A stretch of 64,000 nucleotides of DNA from Hirundichthys speculiger (Eukaryota > Chordata > Actinopteri > Beloniformes > Exocoetidae): NCBI GenBank assembly GCA_018398805.1, contig JAGFBZ010001175.1, forward strand, positions 79,723 through 143,722. The letters are read 5' to 3'. The translations under genes were made by a program, and so were the position numbers. The notes below the pieces were generated by a model that did no database searches, was not told the origin of the DNA, and saw only the letters and a list, made by a program, of their open reading frames with translations. This document shows, one piece after another, positions 1,457 through 63,254 of this stretch (position 1 is the stretch's first letter; the number at the start of each line of letters is the position of its first letter).

Positions 1457-3299
1457 CTGGAACCAATAATCCACATTTACCATTTACAAAATATATGCAC
1501 ACAGCAAGAGTGCATGAAAAACATTTTAATCAAATGATAATGATTCCACTGGTCAAAACTTTTCTCAGGATCAGACTAAACTAACAAGATGTCTCAATTT
1601 CTGGAGGACTTTTTCATGCTTAATTTTGCTTTAGAATGTTTCTCACAAGTGTCTTAAAGCCCTAATTTTTTGCTTTTGTTTTTCTGTGGTGTAATTACTT
1701 GTTGAATTCCTAAAATACTTGTTCTTGAGATTAATTCCCAAACATAAATCACTTGACCCCATTGTTGCTGGAGCTATCTGCACATAAACAGTAACTGGAT
1801 ATTTCCTGCAATGTTTTTCTGACATTTGATCAATAAAGTACTTTACATGCTGATAAATTAAAGAGGCAAAGACTGAGAACATTAGACAACGAGAGAACAG
1901 GCAAACAGGGAAAAACAAAACTACATTTGACGATCAACACAGAATGAAGTAACTAGGAATTATGTAACCTTGGATAGAACAACAACAGGTGACAAACACA
2001 CCTGGTCTTGCTGGTTAAACGGAAAAACACAGCTGAAGTCTGGCCCAACTTTGTTGTTTCAATCGAGATGACGTCATCCACTTGAGGTTTTGTTGCAATG
2101 AGAATGATGGGAAATTCCCAAACGTAGCCAGATGCAGACCGAACTACTATGATGCTTGAGGACCTGCAAACACACACACAAACACACGCACACACAAGGA
2201 TTGAACATTTCTACATGTGTTAAATTTGTTGTATTAGTTGTTTTACATGGTTCTAAGCCTATGTGCTGCTGTGCATGTAAGGCTGAGAAATACTTTTTTT
2301 TGTATATTTTTCAGCATATCACTGTATTACCACTTGATACACATATCTTAGTATTTGCCACCAATTCTTATGATAAATAATTAGCCCCCTTCCTGATTTC
2401 TTGTGTTTGTCACACATAAATGTTCTTAAATTATTTTTCACATAGAAAATGAAAATTAATACTGGAGTCACTGTCAGACTTTGCAGTTATCGATTGTAAG
2501 AATGTAGGACTTATTTTCACAACATGCAGACACTTTTAAAAGGTGTTCTAAACATGAGGGTTTTTACATATTTTCTTGCCACTAAATATATGCAAAAACT
2601 AAAAAATAGAACTTTTCAAAAACAGTTTTAAGCATCCATCATGCCCCATTAAATGTACTTTACTGCACCATGAAAGCTTGCAAGCTCCAATGCACAGAGC
2701 CCTTGTAGATGTTAGAATTTATGTCTGCCTTACATGCACATTGAGATGAAAAATCTCTTATGGGAGCATTGTGGCAAAGCAGGCACCATCATAGTTGAGA
2801 CAGATGGTACCCCTGCCCCCACACACACACACACAAAAAAAGGTGTGTGTGTGTGGGGGGGGGGGGTCAAATATATAGCACAGAATATACAATAAAAGCA
2901 GCATAAAGCCAAGTTCAGTTGAATCATTTCCAGGCAGAAATTAAAATTATTAGACCACCCTTGTTTTCTTCAGTTTCTTGTTCATTTTAATGCCTGGTAC
3001 AACTAAAGGTACATTTGTTTGGACAAACATAATGATAACCACAAAGATTGCTCATAAGAGTTTTATTTAAGAGCTGATATCTTACCATTTTCCATGGTTT
3101 TCTTGATTATCACCTAAATCACTTAAGTTTTTACATCAATAGCTATGGCGTTGTACTGCCAAAAACACTGCTTTTATGCATTCAGTGTTTTCTTTTCTGT
3201 CTGTTTTAGTCACATGATGACATTCAGTGGTACCAGGTATTAAAAGGAACAAGAAAGTGAAGAAAAAATGGTGGTTTCCCAGACTGTGTACATATATAT

Positions 3300-30100: not shown

Positions 30101-33100
30101 TACAGCTATGAGATCAGGGAGACAAGGAACAGAGTACTTGGTATATCATCTGACAGGAAAACAGGAGACTTGATGGTGGAATGAGGATGCGCCCAAGTAT
30201 ATAGAAATAGATTTACTAAGAAGTGGGAAACAGGACAGAAGAGAAGACAGGAGCACAGGAAGAACAGGTAAAAAGGGTGTACAGTGATTTGTATACCAGG
30301 TTGGACAGCAAGAAGGGAGACACCTACTTATACAAGTTGGCGAAGCAGAAAGATAGAGATGGAAGGATGTGCACCAGGCTATGGTGATTAAGGATAGAAA
30401 TGGAAATGTAGTGACAGATAATGGAAGTGTTACAGGAAGATGGAAAGAGTACTTTGAAAAGTTGATGAATGAGGAAAATGAAAGAGAATGAAGAGTAGAA
30501 GAGGTGACTGTTGAGGACCAGAAAATGGCAAAGATTAGTAATGAAGTTAGTTGGTGTAAGAGAAGAGGATGTGGAGGACAGGATTAGATGGAGGCGGATG
30601 ATTGGTTGCGGCGAGCCCCCGAGGGGAAAAGTCCAAAGGAAAAAGAAGATCATCTTTACTATATCAGAGGCAACTGAACACAATAGCTGTTCAGGCACAT
30701 GTTAATTTACCACAAAACTACCATTTCTAGTTAACAACAGTTTATCTGAGCATTACCTTATCTATGTTTTAAATAACCTACCTGAGCATCACACTGTACA
30801 TCAATGACCTTCAATGGTGCTGGAGGCTCACAAATTATCTCAAGGGAGAAATTAACTTCATAGTGTCCAAATACTTTTTCTAAAAGAAACACACATGTAT
30901 ACACAGATGTGAAGAAGATATAACACACATGCTTCTGTATGCACCGAATACTGATCAGCTGATAACTTATGTTTAGGAACACCTAAATTATCTTTGTCCT
31001 TACCTGAATCTTCTACAAATGACACAGTTCCTGTAAAAGAAGTCAATTATGAAGTTCAGTTTTCATTCATTTTATTAGGCTGATGCTTAGATGCAGATAC
31101 ATGTGTTAACATTATGTTTACACAAGTGGCCTAAAAACCTGCAGAACAAATTATTTACAAGCGCCTAAACCACAGCATTTTATTGTAGGTGTTCAAGACA
31201 TGCATTAATATCAAGGACACAAGTACACCATTCTGTGTATATCTCTTTTGATAAATGCAACTGGGTATAATGATAATAAATAATTTCTAAATGAATAATT
31301 TTTACAAAGAAAAGCAGGCTGTGAGAATAGAGAGACAAATAGAAAATAGACAAGGATAGATAGATTGACACAGTTGAAAGCAGTCTATCTGTTTATCTGT
31401 CTATCTATTCTTACATTCTAAATTATTAATTATAAATATTATTATATTATTATATATATATATATATTATTATAAATATAAATATTAATTAATTCTAAAA
31501 AACCACAACCAGCTGAACCTAATGACTACAGACCAGTTGCCCTGACATCTCACATCATGAAAGTCCTGGAGAGACTCTTACTGGTCCACCTCAACAAGCA
31601 GGTCAGCACCTTTCAGGACCCATTACAGTTTGCATATCGTAATGGGCTTGGGGTTGAAGACGCCATCATCTACCTGCTTCACAGAGCCCACTCTCATCTG
31701 GACCAATCAGGCAGCACTTTGAGGGTCATGTTCTTTGATTTCTCAAGTGCTTTTAATACAATTCAGCCTGCGTTGTTATGTGAGAAGCTCCATAAGTTCC
31801 AGGTGGATTCCTCCACAACCTCCTGGATTTATGACTACCTCACAAACAGACCACAGTTTGTGAGACTGAAAGGTTGTGTGTCTGAGATGGAGGTCAGCAG
31901 CATTGGAGCACCACAAGGAACTGTTCTCTCACCATTTCTCTTCACGCTCTACACCTCTGACTTCCAGTACAACTCTGAGTCCTGTCATCTGCAGAAATAC
32001 TCTGATGACTCTGCAGTTGTTGGGTGTATCAGCAACGGACAGGAAGCAGAGTACAAAGAACTGATCTGTCAGTTTGTGAAATGGTGTAGTAACAATCATC
32101 TCGTATTAAATACCAGCAAAACTAAGGAGATGATTGTCGACTTCAGGAGGAGCAAGAATCAACACAGCAGTGTTTCCATCCTGGGAAAGGAGGTGGAGGT
32201 GGTGGAGGAATACAAGTATCTTGGAGTTCAGCTTGACAACAGACTGGAGTGGAAATGCAACACAGAATACATCTACAAGAAAGGTCAGAGCAGACTCTAC
32301 TTTTTAAGAAAGTTGAGATCTTTTAATGTCTGCACCAAGATGTTGCACATCTTCTATAGGTCTGTTGTTGAAAGTGCAATCAGCTTTGCAGCCATCTGCT
32401 GGGGCAGCAGCATCAGAACCAGAGACCTGAAGAGAATCAACAAACTGATCAGGAAAGCTGGATCTGTGCTGGGTGTAACTCTGGAGCCGCTGGAACTGAT
32501 TGTACAAAAAAGAATGCTGCACAAGCTGATGAAGATGATGAAGGACTCTTCACACCCTCTCCACGACACAGTGATCAAACAACAGAGTGTGTTCAGTGAG
32601 AGGCTTCTTCAGGTCCGTTGCAAGACGGAAAGATACAGAAGATCATTCCTGCCAGCAGCCAGCAGCCTCCACAACAAGACTTAACACTGTTATTATATTA
32701 TTATTATTATTTCTGTCTGTTTTTTATTTAAAAAAAAAAAAAAGAGAGAGAGAGAGAGAGAGCCCTTACTTCATTGAATTTCCCTTTATGGGATAAATAA
32801 AGTATTTTTCATTTCATTTCATTTTTCATTCTGTAAGATAGATACAGTCATGGAAAAAATTATTAGACCACCCTTGTTTTCTTCAGTTTCTTGTTCATTT
32901 TAATGCCTGGTACAACAAAAGGTACAATTGTTTGGACAAACATAACGATAACCACAAAGATTGTTCATAAGACTTTTATTTAAGAGCTGATATCTTACCA
33001 TTTTCCATGGTTTTCTTGATTATAACCTAAATCACTTAAAGGAGCCGTTTGTAAGATTATGGCCAAAACTGGTACTGCAGTCACTTTCAAAATACTGTTG

Positions 33101-36100
33101 AGCGGCGTGTACCCTCCCCCTCCTCCCCGACCAGAGGTTGCCAGGTCGGCTGCAGAATGCAGCAGGAACGTAGGCTGTCATGGCAAGCGATGAGTCCTAC
33201 ACAGTAAGTTTATTTTCTGTTAATTATATTTAATGCTTTATGAAAGATCTTTTGCGAAGTAATAATGTACTGCAAAATTTAGTAATGGCGATTAGCCAAA
33301 TAGAATCGTAAATGTTACCACATTTCAGTCGGAGCATACGTTTTCACTTATTTTCACTTAGTTACCCTGTTAAAAATGTCTTTATTAGGCTAGTGTTGCG
33401 ATGTAAAGCTTTTTATGAACGCATTTGAAAAATCTATGCAAATTCTAATTTTGGGCTATGCAGTAATTTATTGTTTGGTTGGGAACACTATAGGCTCATA
33501 TCGATGGTAACTTGTTGTAACGTCGACAATACAACATGTAAAGTCGAGGGTAATTTTCCTAAAATACATCAGGCTATATGAAAAATTACATGACGTGTAG
33601 AATTTGAATCAAAAACACGTCCAAAAGTTCCATGTATGTTGACAAAATTATGCGCTTTTGGTATTGAGGATGTTGCCGTGGAATTACGCCTGATACTTCC
33701 AAACTAACACTAAATTATTGCACAGGCTAAAAGATAGAATATGCTTAGAATACACGTTTATGTCGAGGTAGCCTAGCACTTGTTCCAGATGATCTTTGCT
33801 TGTACTGCTCTCACTTGTTTCAGCCTGATTTAGACCTCACTTTTGAGGTACCCTCTCTTGAGGCTGATGAGAGCTGGGCAGTAAAATTATGACTTGTAAT
33901 ATCACCATCTGTATCTATGTCAGCATCTTATGTAGTTTTAATCAAATGTAAATGCCAAATGCTATTTTGTGGTTTGTTTACTTAGGAACTCATTCAAAAC
34001 ATGAGTGAAATGGGGCTACGAGCACTAGCAACCCGGATCTTCTCCCGGAACCCTGGATTGGTTTTTGATGCCCTGTCTCCATTGGATAGCACCACTCTCC
34101 CACCTGCAGCTGCTCTTCCATGGTGTACCTGTGAGAACTGCAGGGAGATGGCCACAGATGCAGAAAGGAAATGCTGTGGCCAGGGGCCTGAGCACTGCAT
34201 AAACAAATTGCCTCATTTTGAGCTTTACTGCTTGGAAGATGGCTATTTGCGTCTACACAGAGACTACAGGAATGATGTGTTGGTGGTAGCAGAAGTTACA
34301 GAGCCAGGTGATGATAATAGGCAGTTTAGATATGCTGCTTATCGCCAGTACACCTTTTGGCAGCATGGATCACTGGGCCAGGGTAACCGTCGTGTTATCC
34401 CCAGCTGCTGCATTTGGAGAATAAGGGACAAATACCCTGACCCTCAAGGCCAGTACACTGGCTTTCTACCCACAATTTGAACAAACTTTACCGACTCCAG
34501 TTTACTTGAAGTTACTTGTTGTATATACTTTGTTTTTACAAATTGTTTGTTTTGTTCCAAGTTTGTAAAGAGCCTTCTTCCTTGTTCAATAAAAAAAAGT
34601 TTATTTATAATAACAATGCTTTCCTTTTTACGATATAGAGGAACAGTAAAAAATAAATAAATAAATAAAAACGAGGGATAAACAGTATAAATAGTATAAA
34701 TAACTATTTAACAATTAGCTGCTCTGTACTGTGAAAACTTTATGAAATGGTTTAAAAGCAGCTTGTGGCAGAAAATGGAAATGACAAGGGCTGAGAGGCT
34801 CTGGAAACGGGTTTCACTGGTCTTCACTCTGGAATCGTGACACTGAGGAGAGCAAAATAAAAACAGAAATTAGATTATTTTAAAATTAAATGTAATATGC
34901 ATTACATCTAACTTGGTGTGTGGTATGTAGCCGCAGATGCAAAAGAAATAAACTGGTATTCTACCAACCAAGACCTCTCCTGACTTGGGTGCGCAGGAGT
35001 TAAGTTGAAGAGGAGGTAAGGCAACTGATGGAGGCTCTACATCCGGGATGTCATGAACAGTCTCACTGGCATCTATCACCGGCAAGGCAGGGAGGTGCCT
35101 GCAATGCTCCACCCAACCTAAAGACATATTTGTCAATTGCAGATAGAAAGACAATCGGATGAATAGGCAAGGCAAGGCAAGTTTATTTGTATAGCACATT
35201 TCGTGTACAAGACAATTCAAGGTGCTGTACATAAGCATTACAGAGCATTACATTAAAACAGGAGGAAATAAAAGATAAAATAATAATAAAAATGCAAAAA
35301 AATAATAAACAGTTATTTTTGATTTAGGAACTAAAAATGCAGATAAAATGCATGAAATAAAAGTTAAATATTATGATAAAATGTGGCAAATAAAAAAGTT
35401 TTTAACCTTGATTTAAAACTGCTGAGAGTGTCAGCAGACCTGCAGGTTTCTGGGAGTTTTTTCCACATTTGAGGAGCATAAAAACTGAACGCTGCCTCTC
35501 CGTGTTTATTTCTGACTCTGGGAACAGAAAGTAGACTTGAACCTGATGACCTGAGGGATCTGGTGGGTTCAGAACCAACCAGAAGATCCTGAATGTATTT
35601 TGGCCCTAAACCATTCAGTGCTTTGTAAACTAACAGCAGGATTTTGAAGTCAATTCTTTGACAAACAGGAAGCCAGTGTAAAGATCTGAGGACAGGAGTT
35701 ATATGATCCAGTTTCCTGGTGTTAGTGAGGACTGGAGCAGCAGGTTCTGGACTAACTGCAGCTGTCTGATGGTCTTTTTAGGGAGACCTGTCAGGACAGC
35801 GTTACAGTAGTCTAGTCTACTGAAGATAAATGCATGGACAAGTTCTTCTAAATCCTGCAGCAACATCAGTCCTTTAATCCTGGATATGTTCTTTAAGTGA
35901 TAATAAGCTGACTTCACAACTGTCTTGATGTGACTACTGAAGTTCAGGTCTGAGTCCAGGACTACACCCAGATTTCTGGCTTTGTTTTTGGTTTCTAACT
36001 TCGCTCTTTGAAGCTGAGTGCTGACTTTTAATCTTTCTTCCTTGGCTCCAAAAACTATTATTTCAGTTTTGTCTTCATTTAACTGAAGGAAGTTCTGACA

Positions 36101-39100
36101 CATCCAATCTCTAATTTGATCAATGCATCTGATCAGTGTTTGGATTGGACTGTAGTCTCCTGGTGAGATGGTTATGTAGATTTGTGTGTCATCAGCATAA
36201 TTGTGGTAACATATTTTGTTGTTTTTCATAATTTGAGCGAGTGGGAGCATGTAGATGTTGAACAGCAGTGGCCCCAAGATGGAGCCTAATAAACAAATAA
36301 TAATAAAACCTAATAAAACAAAAACAGCAAATGCAGAGAGGTGGTTATCGTTGAGGTCAGCATTCATGGCTGTACTACGGAGACCAGGAATTCTATAAAG
36401 CACTCATCTTTTGTGTTTACGTATTTCATTGAATGAATGTCTGAGGATGTAATATGAATAATTTGTGTGGCACTTTCTATGAGAATCCATTGTTAACATA
36501 CCGAATACAAATACGAGGGACATAGTCTTCATCTTCACTGTCATCTGCTTCAATCTCCTCATCCCTGCTAACACCTTCACTGTCACCCCAATCAATTCTG
36601 TCAAATTTGATAGAAAATTATAATGGTTAATACACAGCAGAACATCTTGTTACACACTATACAGTCAAACCCAGTTGAACTTACACACTGTTCATTAGGT
36701 CATTTATCTCCTGTTCATTCATGAGCGGGGTTTCAGCATCCTGGATGCTCATGTTCTGTAGAATAAAAGAAAACAATCACAATGCGGTCACAATGTACAT
36801 GTTCAACATAATTTCTTATATTTAGACAAATTCGAAAGCTTGAGAGTATTTATATACCTCTCCTCTAGAACCTCTGAGGCATCCATGGTGCACTCCTCAT
36901 CTTCCAATGCTTCCTCTGTAGGTGGCAGGTCTTCTCTATAAATAGTTTAGTTGTTTTAGACAAAAAATGCTTCCAAATATGAAATGAAAATGAAAACAAC
37001 GTGGCACTGATCACTGACCGATTTGAAAGCGTTTCAGACGATGCATGTCCAATACTGGAGAGTGATGGTGCAGTCAGATGGTGCTTCTTCCACTGTCTTT
37101 TGCTTGGGGTTGAAGTGCTTGGGCCATAATAGCTGAAGAGACAAGCGTTTTTGTCATAATTATGGAACACTCTACACATTTACCATAATATGCAACAACC
37201 AACACATTTACCACAGACTAGCGTCTAACCAAAGATAATGCGGGGAAAGTTACGTCTGCATTCGTCATCAATGGCTAACGTTTTTTATCAGTTCCATCAG
37301 AAAAGACTGACACTAATAACTAACGTTAGCAATGGTCAGATGGGTCAATTTGCAGCACGTGTAATACACAACATATGCAAAGAATGAATAAGAAATCGTT
37401 TTACCGTGGTAACGTTAGGCTACTGTCTCAATGAGGTTTCACATTACCATGGCCATGCTAATGTTTTCCACGGCATGATGACTGACGGGCTCCGCTTATT
37501 AGCCTAACGTTACATTGCTATTGTTAGCAATATCAGTCACCGTTTTTATATTCTAAATAATAATTATTTACCTTTTCAATTCGATGACCCACCTGCTCCA
37601 TAACGTTATGCGCTAGCGTTACTGTGCACGAACATGCATAACTTTGTTTAACTAGTGAATACTCCGACGTAGTGAATACTGACATTTCTTTGTTACCTTG
37701 TTCTGTTACCTTGTCCAAGTAAATTAGCGTTAGCCAAACATTTAGCTATGAATCTTACCTGTCCAGGAGAAAATCAGCAACGTTGGCATCTGTCTTCAAA
37801 TTCTTCTCCGCTTTCAGCCGTCTCCATCTATCAAAAGCACCTCCTATACAAATCCTTGTTTTATTTCGGACCTTGTCACGACGTAACTCGGATTCATAAC
37901 GAGGTCTTTTTTGTTTTGGTAAACTAGCCATTTTCACATCCAACACGTTCGTAGCGGCTGCTGCGATAAATAGAGCCGAACTGGCAACCCGGATGCCGAA
38001 ACACTACTGACTTCCTGATTGGGAGATAGGTGGAGGGTGGCGCTTCAGGCCAAAACAAAAAATGACAACAAAAACAAGACTTGCAGCCCTCAAGTCCTCT
38101 TTTTAAAAGGGAATATCCTGGCTTGAGTGCTGTTGTCAGTGACATAAGTATTTGAAATGAACATGATTTTTAAATGTCTTTTGACATATCAGGGTCATTT
38201 TATGATTCGTTTTATTAATCTTCTTACATACAGCTCCTTTAAGTTTTTACATCAATAGCTATGGCGTTGTACTGCCAAAAACACTGCTTTTATGCATTCA
38301 GTGTTTTCTTTTCTGTCTGTTTTAGTCACATGATGACGTTTACTGGTACCAGGTATTAAAATGAACAAGAAAGTGAAGAAAAAATGGTGGTCTAATAATT
38401 TTTTCCATGACTGTAGATAAATAGATAGAAAAAAAAATGAATAAATTATTGAATTCACCTGTGCGTTTTTCCCGCTTCCATGGTGATACAGCCAGAGAGT
38501 ATGCACAGCTGCTTCCAGCTTTTATCTCCAGTGACGGATTGCCGCTTAAAATGCATAGATCTGTCATCATCTACAAGCACGCACACATGCACGCAAGACA
38601 GAGAAGCAAAATAATATATCTGGAACAACGAATAAATGAATGAAACTATTCCACATTGTTTATTGTTCTATAATATTTTCTTTTTTCCTTAAGGAGGGCC
38701 AGATTTAGATTGTCTGGCAGCCTCATCAGGCTCAACTGGGCGGTATTTTGCCAGCGTGTGGTTCGTACCTTCAGGGTGAGGTTGTTCTGGCTGTAGTTGG
38801 GGACATCCAGCTGAGTGTGTGTGGTCCTCCCAACAGGGCAGTGTAACACCACATGGTCTCTGGGCAGGGGGGGTGTTCTCACTCCCTGGAGAGTAAACAC
38901 AGCCATTATGTAAAGACAGCCTGCCCTGTGGAGTAGTGGGAGTAGTGATAAAATCCCCACCATGAGACAGACATCAGGGCACTTTCACGCCACACAACTA
39001 CCAGCATTGGCAGATTGCTTGGACTACACCAGTTGTTAACACTGAAAAATGTCTGGATGGGGGGGGGGGGCAGCAGCAAAATACGAAAGACATGACGCAA

Positions 39101-45100: not shown

Positions 45101-48100
45101 AAATAAAATGGCTGTAATTTCTATGTGGTGAATGCCATATTCTGTGAAACCCCTTAAATCAAAATGTCTATCTCATTATGATTTCAAATCCATTTTGGTG
45201 ACATATAAAGGCAAAATCATAAAACCTTTGTCACTGTCCAAAAACCCCTGGAATTTCAAACACCAACTGTATTTGAAATGTTTTTTTTCTTCCCAAAGCT
45301 CTGTGAATCAAGATTGATTGAGTGTCTTTGTCTTCCACGTGTATTCACAGCTCCCCGGTCGAGTGCATTTTCTTCCACAGTTTGAAATATACCATCATAA
45401 TGCTTGACAGAAAGTATTCTTAATTTACATTTTTGTCAAATTAGATTTCAATGCTTAATTTTCTCTTTTGAAAAGAAGGACTTTGTGATTAATATAATAT
45501 AATTTGAACAAGCGGCAGCATTTTTCTGTGCAACATATCTTTTAAAAGTGTCTGTTCTCACCACAGGACTGCAGCTACCATGACGAATACACACTGCTCA
45601 CTTCAAATCTCACATCAGCACGTTTACTTTCACTAGATCTCAGTCTACTCTGGCAGTGAGATAAAAGAGCAGAACGACAGCTGGCAAAGATGTGAACCAG
45701 TGTCAGAAATAAACACATTGTGGCGCTTGGAACTTTGACTGTAATGATCAATATTTAACATTTAAAATCAAAAGCACGTGTGTGTTTGTGTGATCATCCT
45801 GGAAGTGCTGTGTGTTATTTCCTATTTACCATTAATCTCCCTGCAACCAGTCATGTCTGAAGTCATCTTCTTCATACTAAAAAAGGATAAGGAAAGAAAA
45901 CCATAGTCAGTCGTAGTATACATGGGATTACACATCCTGGATCAGGTGACTCAAAGATGATGTAAAAAATAACATCTGGCTGTTTGATATGTTACCTGCA
46001 TGAGTTACAGGTTAGTGTAACTTAGACTGGGAAACTGTCTCTGACCTGACTTTCATACTTCCTCAGCTAAGTTTTAGGTTTGCTAATGCTATCGGTAATA
46101 CCTGAAATGTAAACAACTACAAAGTTATGATTTTACACTGCATTTAAACGAATCAACTGTTTAAAGCTTTTAATTATAGACTTTACATCAACATGTGGAG
46201 ATACTGTAAGGTGAAGACTGTCCAAATCTCTGAACAACAAACAAAGCGGGTGAAAAGCTGCAAATTCACATATTCAGCAAGATGGAAATGTTATGTTTTG
46301 ATATATTAACATGAAAATTATACTTACTGGTAGATAATTTTAAATGTTCTAGTTGAATTAAAACAAGTGTTTTAAATTGTGTTTTACACAAAACAGTCTG
46401 GGAAAAAAAGATCTAAATTATATAATATGCACCCTAAATTTTGTGAGTTGAAGTCTAAATTTTGAATGTAACAAGTAGCTAAATGTATTATATATACTGC
46501 CCAGCGTACTGTTAAACAAAAATCTCTTAGTCAGTTTGGACTAGTGTTTGTTTCCGCCAATCAGCTTTTAAATTCAATTCAACTTTATTTGTAAAGCATC
46601 TATTACAATACAAATTATCTTCCAGTGCTTTTCAGAGACCCCGAGAAAATATTATTAATCATAGCTAATATTATTAAATCTCAATTAAAAGAACAATGGC
46701 AAGAATAAAAGGGAGGATCCTCCTGCCGAAGGCCAGCCAGGTGAAGGAAGAAAAGAGGAGCATGGTCTCAGACCTCTGAAGCTTCCCTGCTCAGTTTTAT
46801 ACTTTATTCTCTTTAAAAGCCAATCACAATCACAAGCCATCATTCAAGAACAAGCTGAATTAATTGGCTCTGCTTGTTCACATAACGAAGTAAGACAGTG
46901 AAAACAGAGCTCGGGTCTGTACTCTGTTGGATATTGTGAGCGGTGCACATTACTCGGTCTTGGAAGATGCTTGAAGGAAAATGTCTTTCCTTATTTCAGG
47001 CTCCAGTGGGTTGAAGGTAGATTCCACCAGTACCACCCTAAGAACACAATCAAACAATCATCATTGTGTGTACTTTACTTCAGTCTTCAGTATCTCAGGC
47101 AGAGGAACCATCCAAAGGAAAGTCATCAATAGCAATTTAAAAAAATAACTCAACAAAATAAACCCTTCTCATCTTTTTTTTTCATCAGAATTTACAAACA
47201 CATTTAGGTGCTTTTACTTACATTCAGGCATCTTCAAGTACCTACCTGAAGTTAGCATCTTTGTTGAAAGTATTCATTAGTGGAACTTCGATCACATTTA
47301 GCTGGTAACATGGGGAACTGCACTTGACAGTATTCTAAGGAGAGACAGCGTAAAGTGGACAGTCACCAGATTAAAATCATCCTGTCATCACACCTAGCTG
47401 TAAATGAAAGGGACTCTTCAAACAAAGCACGTTAAGAAAGAAATTAGTTTGTCAAATGCAGGTGACGAGCAAATTATTAGTATTTAATTAGTAAAGCAGT
47501 GGATTGCAGTGTTATCCACATTTCCCCTCACAATATTAATACTTTGGCAGGCCACTCATGTATATTATTGACCATTTTGACCATTTATTCATTTATTTTT
47601 AAATCATTGACACTCACAATGTTGAAAGACCCAAAACACCCGATGATCTCAGGTAACAACATCACTGATGATGTGTCCCAGCGCATCCTAGGATGTATCT
47701 ATACACTGTTCCTCTGGCTTGACCAGTGACTCCCAGGAATAGGCTGGGTGACGACCAAGAAAGTTTGGTGACAACTGGAGAGACAGTGGACAGCACGGAG
47801 AGACGGCAACCGGGGCAGGAAGGGGTAGCAGCCCAACTTGCATCTTCCGTAAGGGAGAAACCCAAACAAGCTACAGATCGACCCACAGGAAAATACCCCC
47901 AGGGGAGCCCGAGAGGGGGGGAGGATGAGCACCCCGATAGGACGGACCTAATGATGACGACCTTGGAAAACGGACAATCGACTATGATTAGTAGATGCAT
48001 CTGCGGTAAGGTCTGCCCGCAACGACCATGGCCTAAAAATACATCAGGCCCAGAAGAAATGCTTGGCACAGGAGAACACAGCACAGCGCACAGGATCACC

Positions 48101-51100
48101 GCCTGGTAAGACGCAGGAGGAGCCCGGCCCGGAGACAACCCACAGTGCCCAGAACCTCCAAGTGCTCAACACTCTGAATCCAAGCAAAGTAGTCCGGTAT
48201 CAGCGGATCAAATGGCCTCACGCCAAGCAGCACAGGCTGTGGCAGCAGTTTGACAAGGACACGGCTGGGATCATCAACGCAACAGCAAAAGGAGATGCAG
48301 AGGGACGACTCAAGAGCCTGACCACCATCATTACAAGCTTCGGGGCTGAGAGGTTCGGGGTTGAAGAGCCTAAGTCTAGCAAGCCCACCCACACTAACAA
48401 CCGTAGGGCAGACAAAATCCACCAGCTGCGGAAAGAGCTGCGGTCGCTGGCAAAGCAGTTCAAGACAGCAAGTGCAGCGGAAAAGCCACCTCTCGCAGAG
48501 CTTCGACTCACCATCCGGAAGAAACTCACGAACCTGCGTAGGGCGGAATGGCACAGGAGACGGAGTACTGAGAGAGCCAGGAAGCGGACCTCCTTTATTT
48601 CCAACCCCTTTGGATTCACAAAGAAGTTGTTAGGGCAGAAGCGCAGTGGGCGTCTTGACTGTTCCAAGGGGGAGGTAGATGACCATCTCTTCAACACCCT
48701 CCGCGACCCAGACAGAGAACGAGAGCTAGGACCACAGAGAGCCCTCCGGGAAGTACCAGCCCCTCTAGTGGAGTTCAATACTGCAGATCCCACTTGGAGG
48801 GAAGTCCAGGAGGTGGTAACATCCGCCAGAGCAAGTTCTGCTCCAGGTCCCAGCCAAGTGCCTTACAAGATGTACAAGCACTGTCCAAACCTCCTCAGAA
48901 TCCTATGGAACCTACTGCTGGTGTTTTGGCGTAGAGGGACCATTCCGGATCAGTGGAGACAGGCTGAGGGAATCTGGATTCCAAAAGAGGAGAATTCCAC
49001 CAAGCTGGAGCAGTTCCGATCCATCTCACTTCTTAGTGTGGAGGGAAAGATCTTCTTTAGCGTCCTCGCCAGAAGGATGACGGACTTCCTCCTCAAGAAC
49101 AATTACGTGGACACCTCAGTACAGAAGGGGGGCATACCTGGAGTGCCCGGGTGCCTGGAACACACCGGAGTGGTCACTCAGTTGATCAGGGAGGCACGAG
49201 AGGGGAATGGAGACCTGGCGGTGCTTTGGCTTGACCTCGCCAATGCGTATGGGTCCATCCCCCACAAGCTGGTGGAAACCACCTTGGACCGTCACCACAT
49301 TCCCCGCAAGTTCAAGGACCTCATCCTGAACTATTATGGGAACTTCAGGCTGAGAGTTACATCAGGGAGAAAGGGATCATAACCGGCTGTACGATCTCAG
49401 TTATCCTGTTCGCCCTGGCTATGAGTATGTTGGTGAAAGCAGCTGAGACTGAGTGTAGAGGCCCCTTGTCTAAGTCTGGAGTTCGGCAACCCCCCATCCG
49501 TGCCTTTATGGATGACCTGACGGTTACCACCACATCAGTGCCGGGGTGCAGATGGATCCTACAGGGCCTGGAGAAGTTAATCCCTGGGCTAGGATGAGCT
49601 TCAAACCAACAAAATCCAGGTCCATGGTGCTAAAGCGGGGAAAAGTGGTGGACAGGTTTCGTTTCTTTGTTGATGGAACGGCAATACCTACAATCACTGA
49701 GAAGCCAGTCACAAGCTTGGGCAAGACCTTTGACTGTAGCCTCAGAGACACAGCCTCCATCCAAGCAACCATCACGAAGCTTGAAACTTGGTTATCCGTA
49801 GTAGACAAGTCTGGCCTACCCGGTAGGTTCAAGGCATGGCTGTACCAGCACGGCATTCTTCCCCGTATCCTTTGGCTCTTGTTGGTGTATGAGGTGACTA
49901 TATCCACGGTGGAGACCCTGGAGAGAAAGATCAGTTCCTACCTCAGAAGATGGCTGGGTCTGCCTCGCAGTCTCACAAGTGCAGCACTGTACAGCAGAAG
50001 AAACAAACTCCAGCTTCCTTTCAGCAGCCTGGAGGAGGAATTCAGGGTCTCTCGTACAAGAGAGGCACTTCTCTACCGAGACTCAAGCGATACCAGAGTG
50101 GCATCAGCAGGCATTGTGGTTCGGCGGGCAGGAAGTTCGGGGCTCAAGAGGGGTTGGAGCAGGCAGAGTCTCGAATGAGACACAAGGCCTTGGTGGGCAC
50201 GCTGGCGATCGGGCGAGCAGGGCTGGGCGCCATCCCACAGCCACGGTACGACAGGGCCCAGGGCAAGGAAAGGCGGGACCTTGTCTTGGAGGAGGTGCGG
50301 GCAGGGGTTGAGGATGGGAGGACCAACAGGATGGTGAGTATGCGGCAGCAGGGGGCATCATCGAGGTGGGAAGGAACGCTGGAAAGGAAGCTAACCTGGA
50401 ATGACATCTGGAAGGCAGAGCCCCAGCGTATTAAGTTCATGGTCCAAGCTGTTTATGATGTGCTACCAAGTCCAGCTAACCTGCAAGTTTGGGGGAAGAG
50501 TGACCTCCCAACTTGCCCCCTCTGTCCTGGAAGAGGCACGCTGGAGCACATCATGAGCAGCTGCCCTGTAGCTCTCGGAGAAGGTCGATACCGCTGGAGA
50601 CACGACCAGGTGCTGAAGGCAGTGGCTGGAACTATCTCCAGTGCAGTGGCCAACAACAAATACATCAGCAGCCGGAAATCAATTCCATTCGTGAGAGCTG
50701 GAGAGAAGCCACACCCTAAATCAACATCATCGGCCAGTCTTCTCTCATCGGCAGCAGACTGGGAGCTGCGAGTTGACTTGGGCAGGCAGCTCAAGTTCCC
50801 AGAGTATATAACATCAACCTCATTGAGACCAGACCTGGTTCTGACATCTGCCTCTTCAAAGCAAGTCCTCTTATTGGAACTGACAGTCCCTTGGGAGGAC
50901 CGCATGGAAGAGGCCAATGAGCGCAAGCGGCTCAAATACCAGGAGCTCATTGAAGACTGTCGGAGGAGAGGCTGGAAAGCCCGCTGTGAGCCAATAGAGG
51001 TGGGATGTCGGGGCTTCGCTGCATGGTCCCTGTGCAGGGCCTACAGCCTGCTTGGCATCCAAGGCGCTGCTAAAAGGAGAGGCGTCAAGTCCGCCACAGA

Positions 51101-54100
51101 GGCTGCAGAGAGAGCCTCTAGGTGGATCTGGATCAAAAGGTCCGAAAAGTGGGCTAATGCTGCTGGGACACAAGCCGGGGACTGATCACCCCGGCTGGGT
51201 CGCCTGAGGGAGGGTGTCTGATGTTGAAAGACCCGAAACACCCGATGATCTCAGGTAACAACATCACTGATGATGTGTCCCAGCGCATCCTAGGATGTAT
51301 CTATACACTGTTCCTCTGGCTTGACCAGTGACTCCCAGAAATAGGCTGGGTGACGACCAAGAAAGTTTGGTGACAACTGGAGAGACAGTGGACAGCACGG
51401 AGAGACGGCAACCGGGGCAGGAAGGGATGGCAGCCCAACTTGCAACTTGCATAAGGTCTGCAAGAATGACCATGGCCTAAAAATACATCAGGCCCGGAAG
51501 AAATGCTTGGCACAGGAGAACACAGCACAGCTCACAGGATCACCGCCTGGTAAGACGCAGGAGGAGCCCGGCCCGGAGACAACCCACAGTGCCCAGAACC
51601 TCCAAGTGCTCAACACTCTGAATCCAAGCAAAGTAGTCCGGTATCAGCGGATCAAATGGCCTCACGCCAAGCAGCACAGGCTGTGGCAGCAGTTTGACAA
51701 GGACACGGCTGGGATCATCAACGCAACAGCAAAAGGAGATGCAGAGGGACGACTCAAGAGCCTGACCACCATCATTACAAGCTTCGGGGCTGAGAGGTTC
51801 GGGGTTGAAGAGCCTAAGTCCAGCAAGCCCACCCACACTAACAACCGTAGGGCAGACAAAATCCACCAGCTGCGGAAAGAGCTGCGGTCGCTGGCAAAGC
51901 AGTTCAAGACAGCAAGTGCAGCGGAAAAGCCACCTCTCGCAGAGCTTCGACTCACCATCTGGAAGAAACTCACGAACCTGCGTAGGGCGGAATGGCACAG
52001 GAGACGGAGGACTGAGAGAGCCAGGAAGCGGACCTCCTTTATTTCCAACCCCTTTGGATTCACAAAGAAGTTGTTAGGGCAGAAGCGCAGTGGGCGTCTT
52101 GACTGTTCCAAGGGGGAGGTAGATGACCATCTCTTCAACACCCTCCGCGACCCAGACAGAGAACGAGAGCTAGGACCACAGAGAGCCCTCTGGGAAGTAC
52201 CAGCCCCTCTAGTGGAGTTCAATACTGCAGATCCCACTTGGAGGGAAGTCCAGGAGGTGGTAACATCCGCCAGAGCAAGTTCTGCTCCAGGTCCCAGCCA
52301 AGTGCCTTACAAGGTGTACAAGCGCTGTCCAAACCTCCTCAGAATCCTATGGAACCTACTGCGGGTGTTTTGGCGTAGAGGGACCATTCCGGATCAGTGG
52401 AGACAGGCTGAGGGAACCCCCCAGTGCTGAAGGCAGTGGCTGGAACTATCTCCAGTGCAGTGGCCAACAACAAACACATCAGCAGCCGGAAATCAATTCC
52501 ATTCGTGAGAGCTGGAGAGAAGCCACACCCTAAACCAACATCATCGGCCAGTCTTCTCTCATCGGCAGCAGACTGGGAGCTGCGAGTTGACTTGGGTTCC
52601 CAGAGTATATAACATCAACCTCATTGAGACCAGACCTGGTTCTGACATCTGCCTCTTCAAAGCAAGTCCTCTTATTGGAACTGACAGTCCCTTGGGAGGA
52701 CCGCATGGAAGAGGCCAATAAACGCAAGCGGCTCAAATACCAGGAGCTCATTGAAGACTGTCGGAGGAGAGGCTGGAAAGCCCGCTGTGAGCCAATAGAG
52801 GTGGGATGTCGGGGCTTCGCTGCACGGTCCCTGTGCAGGGCCTACAGCCTGCTTGGCATCCAAGGCGCTGCTAAAAGGAGAGGTGTCAAGTCCGCCACAG
52901 AGGCTGCAGAGAGAGCCTCTAGGTGGATCTGGATCAAAAGGTCCGAAAAGTGGGCTAATGCTGCTGGGACACAAGCCGGGGACTGATCACCCCGGCTGGG
53001 TCGCCTGAGGGAGGGTGTCTGATGTTGAAAGACCCGAAACACCCGATGATCTCAGGTAACAACATCACTGATGATGTGTCCCAGCGCATCCTAGGATGTA
53101 TCTATACACAAATGACATTCCTCCCCTTTTTAAATACCTACAAACAACAGAAGGAAAACAGCATGGTAAAAGTAATCTGTGTTTAATAGTTTAAGTTCAC
53201 GTAGAGTGTCTCTAGATGATGGTACAACTGCAAAGTAAAATGTATCTGCATCAACCCATTGCTATTAAGGTGAAAGATGTTGGAGAATATTTAGACTTTA
53301 TGCAGTCAGAAAGTAGTTGGTAGTTACACAATAACACTAACATATATCATCACTGATGGAAAAAAATAATTATTTCAACGATACAGCTACAATAGAGAAA
53401 CTTTGACTAAATTCACCACAGCCTGGAAATCGTGTGGTCATCATGTTTATACTGTGGTGTTATTGTGGGATGCTCTACTTCACATGGTGCTGACTTCAGT
53501 ATGTCTTAGCCCTTGTTGCCAATTATCTTTCGTGGCTTTAGACTTTTTTTTCAGAACCCTTGTATTAAAAATAAAATACAACAAAGAAAAAGCTAGCTAA
53601 TATAGCGACCCTTAAATCAAACCTTTTTTACTCTCTGTTAACACTTGCTGCACTTCAGGTACAAAGAGTAAAATGTGTTGATGCATTACTGTAATGATCC
53701 CAACAGAAACAAGCAAAGTAAATGTAGACGGCTAACATGGATGTGAATGTGGATGAAAAAGTAGAAAATTAACACATTTTGTTTCTTATGAAGAATAAAA
53801 CTACAGCACAAAGTATAATCTAATTCTGTGGGAAACATAAACCAGGTGTAGCTGCAATAAAAATAATGTATCTGGTAAATTTTTCTTTTCTTTCTGTATG
53901 TTTGTAGGCCAGAGTTTCCTGAGTTTCATGCTGACTTGCAGTTCCATCCTCTGTCCATCCCAGCGTTTACCTCCACCTGTGTGTGTAGATGTGTAAAGTA
54001 GAGATCGACCGATTATCGGTCGGGCCGATTATTAGGGCCGATATTTGGAAATTTGACTTATATCGGCATCGGCCTTTTTTTTAATCGACCGGCCGATATG

Positions 54101-61925: not shown

Positions 61926-62122
61926 CACGATGAGTGCGCATGCGCATAAATGGTTCGAATCAAAAGTTATGACGTAACGCTCAAGTTGTCGTCACAGCAA
62001 CGAAAACAGAGATCAAAGAGGCTACTCTTTTTTTCACATAACCTGTGGGTACAAACACAGAAACGGGTCGCTGTGAAAATTTTAAATAAGTAATTCTTTG
62101 AGGAATTCTCAAACTTTCAGAA
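61926..62122. other. Upstream sequence of the HIPK-like pseudogene
   Basis: Contains TGACGTAACGC (CRE-like half site) at about 61970 and TTAAATAAG at about 62082. No clear promoter. No feature can be supported. Confidence 0.3.
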
Positions 62123-63254
62123 ATGGAGACACCCAGGAGCAGTTATTCATCAGAACATCAATATGACATATATAAAGGTCTTATTATCAGAGGTTACTCA
62201 AACAGTTACTACGTTGAAGAGCTCTTGCATTCAGGAGCTTCTGGAAACGTTTTCAGGTGCAGAAAACTGGGAACAAACAACCACGTGGCAGTAAAAATTA
62301 TGAATAGAGATTATACTGAGGTAGGAAAGAGCGAAGCTCTAATATTATATCGATTAAGAATGTATGACCCCGACAGAAACAACTTGCTCGAGCTTATTGA
62401 AAGTTTCATGTATAAGGACCATTTTTGTCTGGTCACAGAATTGTTGGACATGACTCTAACTGATTTTATTAAAAGAAGAAATTTTGAACCTCTGCACCTC
62501 AGTGACATTCGTGACATTGCTAGGCAGTTACTAGTGGCTCTGAAAATACTGAGGACCATTGGTGTGATTCACACAAATATCACACCTGACAACATAATGC
62601 TGGTAGACCACCAGGTGCAGCCTTTCAAAGTTAAGATAATAGGTTTCGGTCATGCTACTGATACAACTAATTCAAAGAAGGAGGGCACTTTCCAGAGTAT
62701 TCCTTACAGGCCTCCAGAGGTTATCCTTGACCATCCTCAAGTGGACGTAATGGCAGATATGTGGTCTCTTGGTTGTCTTCTGATATATTTATATATAAGT
62801 CAAGACCCATTTCCAAATGAAGAAGCTGGTGCAATTAATTTTATGTGTGTGTGTGTGTGTGTGTGTATGTGTGTGAACGGCCCGGAGATTCTTTCCTGAA
62901 AGCTGCACGCAGGTCAAGAACCTTTCTTAGGAGGACGGATTTACGTACATCTTTGGTATGGCATCCCTTCAATCCCGGGAGATTTAACTGGGATTCTGAT
63001 GCCGAGTTTGGTGAAGGGCAATTGATTTAATAATCAGGGAATGGGAAAATCCCATCATAAATCTAGACGCACAACATTTGGTGTCCCTCATCAGGGCCTT
63101 ATTAAGAATGAATCCTCAAAGACGCATTACGCCAAGTAGGGCTTTAAACTACGAATTCATTACTTTGAAGCATTTTGATGGTTTGACTGATCCTTATATA
63201 ACCAATCATGGTTTCCTGCAGACCTTATTTGGCCAGGCGCCCCGCCCGGCCTGA
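62123..63254 (+). pseudogene. HIPK-like pseudokinase pseudogene
   Basis: The frame from ATG 62123 encodes an N-lobe and most of a kinase C-lobe of the HIPK family. Gly loop is degenerate (HSGASGNV, residues 36-43), the VAIK Lys is kept (VAVKIM, K58), as is the helix C Glu (E71). The HRD loop reads VIHTNITPDNIMLVD (Asp to Asn152, Lys to Thr154), DFG reads GFG (Asp to Gly174), and later come PYRPPEVIL and DMWSLGCLL. At 62843-62872 a (GT)n run breaks the frame. The frame from 62845 continues RPGDSFLKAARRSRTFLRRT and stops at 63030. A third frame from about 63015 gives LDAQHLVSLIRALLRMNPQR and RITPSRALNYEFITLKHF, the end of the kinase fold. No introns seen. Even with an intact frame it could not transfer phosphate by the usual mechanism. 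Confidence 0.75.
62843..62872. repeat. (GT)n microsatellite inside the kinase frame
   Basis: A run of GT repeats that adds a CVCVCV-type stretch and shifts the frame of the HIPK-like pseudogene. Confidence 0.9.

Follow-up and report, generated by a model that had tools for sequence, protein, structure and literature searches.

A probable non-autonomous Kolobok-type transposon with a P2X7-type ballast gene in Hirundichthys speculiger

A 64,000-nucleotide stretch of the genome of the beloniform fish Hirundichthys speculiger (assembly GCA_018398805.1, contig JAGFBZ010001175.1, positions 79,723 to 143,722 of the forward strand; hereafter the window) contains a mobile element flanked by TTAA that carries a gene for a stand-alone version of the ballast domain of P2X7. 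This raises a set of related questions - to what kind of element does such a gene belong, does it still serve that element, and does the element bear on how P2X7 acquired its tail? The answer that we regard as very probable is that the element belongs to the Kolobok-type DNA transposons, of which it would be a young and non-autonomous copy derived from a parent with two genes, and that the ballast gene is mostly a passenger in it. The Kol0 group of Kolobok elements is described by Kojima & Bao (2022; PMC9587614) as encoding a transposase together with KolX, a protein with the ballast fold, and we use the name KolX for the gene of the window.

Borders of the element and its KolX gene

The element occupies exactly positions 33040-38238 of the window, beginning with AGGAGC, ending with GCTCCT and lying between TTAA at 33036-33039 and TTAA at 38239-38242. 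Its terminal inverted repeats (TIRs) are 17 bp long and imperfect, with 15 of the 17 bases alike between left and right. It has landed within a miniature inverted-repeat transposable element (MITE), and when its two flanks are joined they match a MITE copy at 2943-3275 of the same window at 322 of 333 positions (97%). That copy has a single TTAA and lacks the element, and thereby represents the empty site. The original prediction had described a TTAA-flanked transposon with TIRs and a ballast gene, along with an empty site at about 2.9-3.3 kb; the observation is real, and the coordinates proved exact on recheck.

32843..33039, unstranded: MITE left half, landing site of the element (inverted arms; MITE copy 2943-3275)
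33036..33039, unstranded: left TTAA target-site duplication (sequence and empty-site comparison)
33040..38238, unstranded: probable non-autonomous Kolobok-type element, type A copy (see below) with an inserted fragment of a long interspersed nuclear element (LINE) (ends and TTAA common to 20/20 whole copies)
33040..33056, plus strand: left TIR, AGGAGCCGTTTGTAAGA (15/17 match to the right TIR)
38222..38238, minus strand: right TIR, AGGAGCTGTATGTAAGA as read on the minus strand (15/17 match to the left TIR)
38239..38242, unstranded: right TTAA target-site duplication (sequence and empty-site comparison)
38243..38415, unstranded: MITE right half, landing site of the element (inverted arms; MITE copy 2943-3275)

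On the plus strand of the element lies KolX, for which three exons with GT/AG borders are predicted, giving a product of 191 amino acids, as had been proposed; the intron borders are kept throughout the whole copies described below.

33180..33203, plus strand: KolX exon 1 (MASDESYT), predicted (GT donor, open frame)
33824..33880, plus strand: KolX exon 2, predicted (AG/GT borders)
33986..34480, plus strand: KolX exon 3, with the entire ballast domain and the stop codon (PF20478; structure model and Foldseek)
34588..34593, plus strand: AATAAA, candidate polyadenylation signal of KolX (sequence only)

The domain-model search and the structure prediction that had been suggested as checks were both run, and both lead to P2X7. 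The product matches Pfam P2RX7_C (PF20478) with an E-value of 9e-29 and a score of 101.2 bits, far above the cut-off of 23.5; it has no P2X channel part, PF20478 being its sole Pfam match at E<=10. A sequence search of the PDB recovered four distinct sequences, all of them P2X7. The ballast domain is confined to exon 3, and a structure model of this exon built from 38 sequences reached a predicted local distance difference test score (pLDDT) of 84. In a Foldseek search of this model against the PDB all 14 matches at E<=0.001 were P2X7; the other 21 of the 35 matches at E<=10 were weak (E of 2.4 or more) and unrelated to it.

KolX thus shares with the P2X7 ballast the domain, the fold and all seven cysteines aligned to the zinc-binding cysteines of P2X7, each being conserved across 38 to 47 of the 47 rows of the ballast alignment. 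It also has equivalents of the pocket residues R546 (46/47 rows), Y550 (45/47) and R578 (46/47), the roles of these residues being in part those given in PMC7016195. It differs from P2X7 in lacking the channel part, in the position of H547, which is Y in 32 rows and H in 13, in the absence of R574 and K583 from every one of the 47 rows, and in two helices that the model places ahead of the P2X7-aligned part. Zebrafish Nanor, as described in PMC7016195, is likewise a stand-alone ballast protein, and agrees with KolX in which pocket residues are retained and which are lost; it is, however, presented there as a host gene, with two in zebrafish, whereas KolX here is repeated inside a transposon.

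Genomic copies and the antisense transposase remnants

Matches to the first 261 bases of the element were 98-100% identical at all 40 places scored, these being the best 40 of 771 candidates, which sets a lower bound of at least 40 matches in the genome. Twenty stretches were fetched; with the window copy added and L023, truncated where its contig stops, set aside, they yielded 20 whole copies. These stand for 19 insertions, as L009 and L010, one insertion on two contigs with 98.2% identity and 51 gap openings over 9 kb, are counted as alleles of one site; either the assembly holds both alleles or these differences include indel noise. The copies were picked through their left end, including KolX exon 1, and are hence a non-random sample. 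An examination of further copies for the same borders had also been suggested, and all 20 start with TTAA-AGGAGC and end with GCTCCT-TTAA. Taken with the 40 of 40 matches at 98-100% identity, these shared ends are not due to chance. Over the non-coding sequence within their first 2 kb the copies diverge from their consensus by 0.8-4.9%; GT/AG is kept at both KolX introns in 20/20. The KolX region is present in all of them, though the 5' end used to select them itself contains exon 1. In the set-aside L023 (C1596:41246 and 41817) two element copies lie head to head, with their left ends about 300 bp apart.

Beyond KolX, the element has a second gene that the original prediction had overlooked, namely the remnants of a multi-exon transposase on the minus strand, interrupted by the LINE fragment.

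37759..37931, minus strand: transposase exon 1 remnant (borders by eye, rechecked; goldfish P0048 aligns)
37019..37132, minus strand: transposase exon 2 remnant (alignment to relatives)
36858..36935, minus strand: transposase exon 3 remnant, whose phase misfits exon 4 in the window copy (alignment to relatives)
36685..36755, minus strand: transposase exon 4 remnant (alignment to relatives)
36502..36597, minus strand: transposase exon 5 remnant (alignment to relatives)
35166..36311, minus strand: LINE (reverse transcriptase) fragment within the element, limits approximate (RVT_1 E 8.6e-12; alignment break at element 2130/3277)
35005..35117, minus strand: transposase exon 6 remnant, out of frame in the window copy, with core and C-terminus absent beyond it (alignment to relatives)

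The assembled antisense product matched 14 proteins among 158 candidates, and its goldfish and Alosa relatives extend into the transposase core; its only NCBIfam match fell far under the cut-off. A search with the goldfish protein matched 26 of 521 candidates, including P0064, a 665-residue protein from Sparus, which aligns with the window remnants. P0064 displays ADGRMDSPG at 317, CTDAH at 383, DMWH at 409, NHFWWCC at 442 and DLESFQNH at 527, a series that fits the order D, D, DxxH and E with an intervening zinc finger, the putative catalytic roles being assigned by motif order only. At the N-terminus (window 37758-38003, minus strand; P0048, P0069 and P0070) there is a conserved basic stretch, RxxTRxxIGxAFxxWxxL...FLL, without a Pfam match in the window, which may be a DNA-binding domain of a non-THAP type.

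Projected on P0064, the whole copies fall into two deletion types. Ten, including the window copy, keep about residues 2-146 in pieces (type A), and the other ten keep parts of 417-659, eight of these also retaining 2-43 (type B); residues 147-416 occur in 0/20. Eighteen further copies, sampled by 1.2 kb each, comprised 14 of type B, two of type A, a call based on what lies to the right of the junction and on how far the junction is from the left end, and two that could be placed in neither (L040 and L045). Both D motifs are accordingly missing from 36/36 resolved copies of the 38 looked at. As the transposase core is absent from every resolved copy, these are non-autonomous, and since the deletion junctions differ between copies there must have been at least two deletions.

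The LINE fragment is absent from copy L019. The same insert is found in nine of the 20 copies at eight sites, and hence the damaged element moved after the LINE had entered it, presumably by means of a transposase supplied from elsewhere. The original prediction had missed this insert, as well as the inability of the window copy to move itself.

Assignment to the Kolobok superfamily and competing explanations

Several features place the element with Kolobok. It shares the 4-bp TTAA target-site duplication, seen in all the whole copies and at the empty site, and the 5'-RR...YY-3' termini of the superfamily, here AG...CT; AG ends and a usual THAP domain are given for Kolobok in PMC6004289. As in the Kol0 group, its second gene is a KolX with the ballast fold and seven cysteines. 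As to the DDD/E core of Kolobok, with C/DxxH between the second D and the E, motifs of this kind can be read in the relative P0064 but not in the resolved copies, which lack the core. In contrast to Kol0, then, the resolved copies here lack the transposase core, and no THAP domain was detected at the transposase N-terminus. We conclude that the window element is very probably a decaying member of an already published kind of element, the Kol0 Kolobok with KolX.

A number of observations count against this assignment. It was made from TTAA, termini and KolX, and DxxH is common to five superfamilies, so that alone it is no proof of Kolobok. There was no Pfam match in window 37758-38003 and no THAP in P0064, P0075, P0074, P0080 or P0063, though these gene models may lack their N-termini; P0080, despite having no Pfam THAP, carries a THAP-type label in its source. 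No autonomous copy was found among those from the best 40 of the 771 5'-end candidates, and some of the KolX frameshifts considered below may be assembly errors, as suggested by the gap openings between L009 and L010.

The TTAA target would also suit a piggyBac-type element that had acquired a KolX-like gene, a few such families being reported by Kojima & Bao (2022; PMC9587614), and for the Umbra relative P0067 the source gives the label PiggyBac-derived. We consider this the least probable of the readings, as the ends of the element, 5'-AG...CT-3', follow the RR/YY rule, which that paper gives for Kolobok as unlike piggyBac, and as the window KolX retains all seven zinc cysteines, most of which are lacking in the piggyBac versions described there. 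Moreover, no piggyBac Pfam domain was present in the scanned window frames or in P0064, P0075, P0074, P0080 and P0063, although the core is missing from the copies themselves. Scarcely more probable is that the ballast gene is a nanor-like host gene captured by the element rather than an original part of it. PMC7016195 does present Nanor as a host gene containing this domain, but Kojima & Bao (2022; PMC9587614) report that Kol0 elements encode KolX as their second protein and see Nanor as derived from KolX. That the KolX region occurs in each of the 20 copies, whichever their deletion type, speaks against capture too, weakly, in view of how the copies were chosen.

Under the preferred reading, a Kolobok-type origin, complementary remnants in the type A and type B copies suggest a parent element with two convergent genes, the plus strand encoding KolX and the minus strand a DDE transposase in several exons. 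There KolX would have been an accessory protein, not a channel part, aiding the transposase through its zinc-bound fold by binding DNA, nucleotide or a partner. Internal deletions would then have removed the transposase core but spared the ends of the resulting short elements, which transposase from other sources would have moved in trans to new TTAA sites.

KolX after the loss of the core, and the origin of the P2X7 tail

In the present copies KolX drifts near-neutrally and is mostly a passenger. It is fully open in four of the 20 copies (window, L011, L020 and L025), with L027 lacking only the stop codon, and the changes among copies comprise 52 nonsynonymous, 20 synonymous and three stop changes, against 62, 20 and four expected without selection from the spectrum of non-coding change. 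One might argue instead that KolX is under selection in non-autonomous copies since it promotes the mobility of the very copy that carries it: the slight deficit of nonsynonymous changes, the four fully open copies and the retention of the region by both deletion types, in a sample drawn through exon 1, would agree with this. We hold it to be improbable, given the near-neutral pattern and the frequency of stops and frameshifts, though less so than either rival concerning the identity of the element. What is added to the published picture is that KolX persists in elements after loss of the transposase core, decaying in a near-neutral fashion from then on; and with a few copies still fully open, its role in transposition is amenable to testing.

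Could the family have passed between teleost orders by horizontal transfer, carrying its ballast genes along? Sequence comparisons hint at this, and we entertain it as a tentative possibility. In transposase exon 6 the goldfish and Alosa proteins are 79-83% identical to the remnants of this family and Merluccius 82-85%, against 56-60% for Sparus and Perca; over N-terminal exons 1 and 2 the values are 70-82% for goldfish and 57-63% for Sparus. In a ballast tree an Alosa protein groups with those of Epinephelus, Sphaeramia and the window (97/91), while that of Perca falls outside this group. The case is held down by the small contrast in the C-terminal exons (Alosa 73-91%, Merluccius 66-88%, Sparus 64-84%) and by Merluccius being as close as Alosa.

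The original prediction had further suggested that such elements gave P2X7 its tail. The general idea is already in print: Kojima & Bao (2022; PMC9587614) propose that a fusion with KolX gave rise to P2X7 and regard Nanor as a likely case of domesticated KolX, and Rump et al. (2020; PMC7016195) have the ballast domain captured by a P2X4-like gene. With its exact empty site the present locus lends support, from a single genome, to the published view of the P2X7 ballast as a Kolobok accessory gene. The particular family in the window was tried as donor and rejected, as it sits in a teleost clade and its copies are young (divergence as above). The tree on which this rests has 50 rows (46 hits, the window and three mammalian P2X7). 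In it the window KolX falls in a 29-row clade (99/96) in which 11/11 organism-named rows are teleosts, whereas the mammalian P2X7 tails form one branch apart from it (100/100, length 1.67) and group at 92/87 with P0045 and P0046, two metagenome ballast proteins from JGI sources. As its P2X7 rows are all mammalian, the tree speaks against the window family as donor and is no test of the published KolX origin. A search for KolX-like genes in viral contigs gave 49 stretches fitting a sequence pattern, none confirmed by tblastn.

An Rfam search of the window returned 0 matches. Elsewhere in it, a LINE frame of 400 residues (31482-32684, plus strand; RVT_1 E 2.6e-29) lies directly left of the MITE. 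Long open frames at 47988-51185 and 51354-52430 resemble one LINE, the shorter second copy being nearly identical by eye, and an open frame at 62102-62899 (plus strand) resembles, by eye, a HIPK-type protein kinase.

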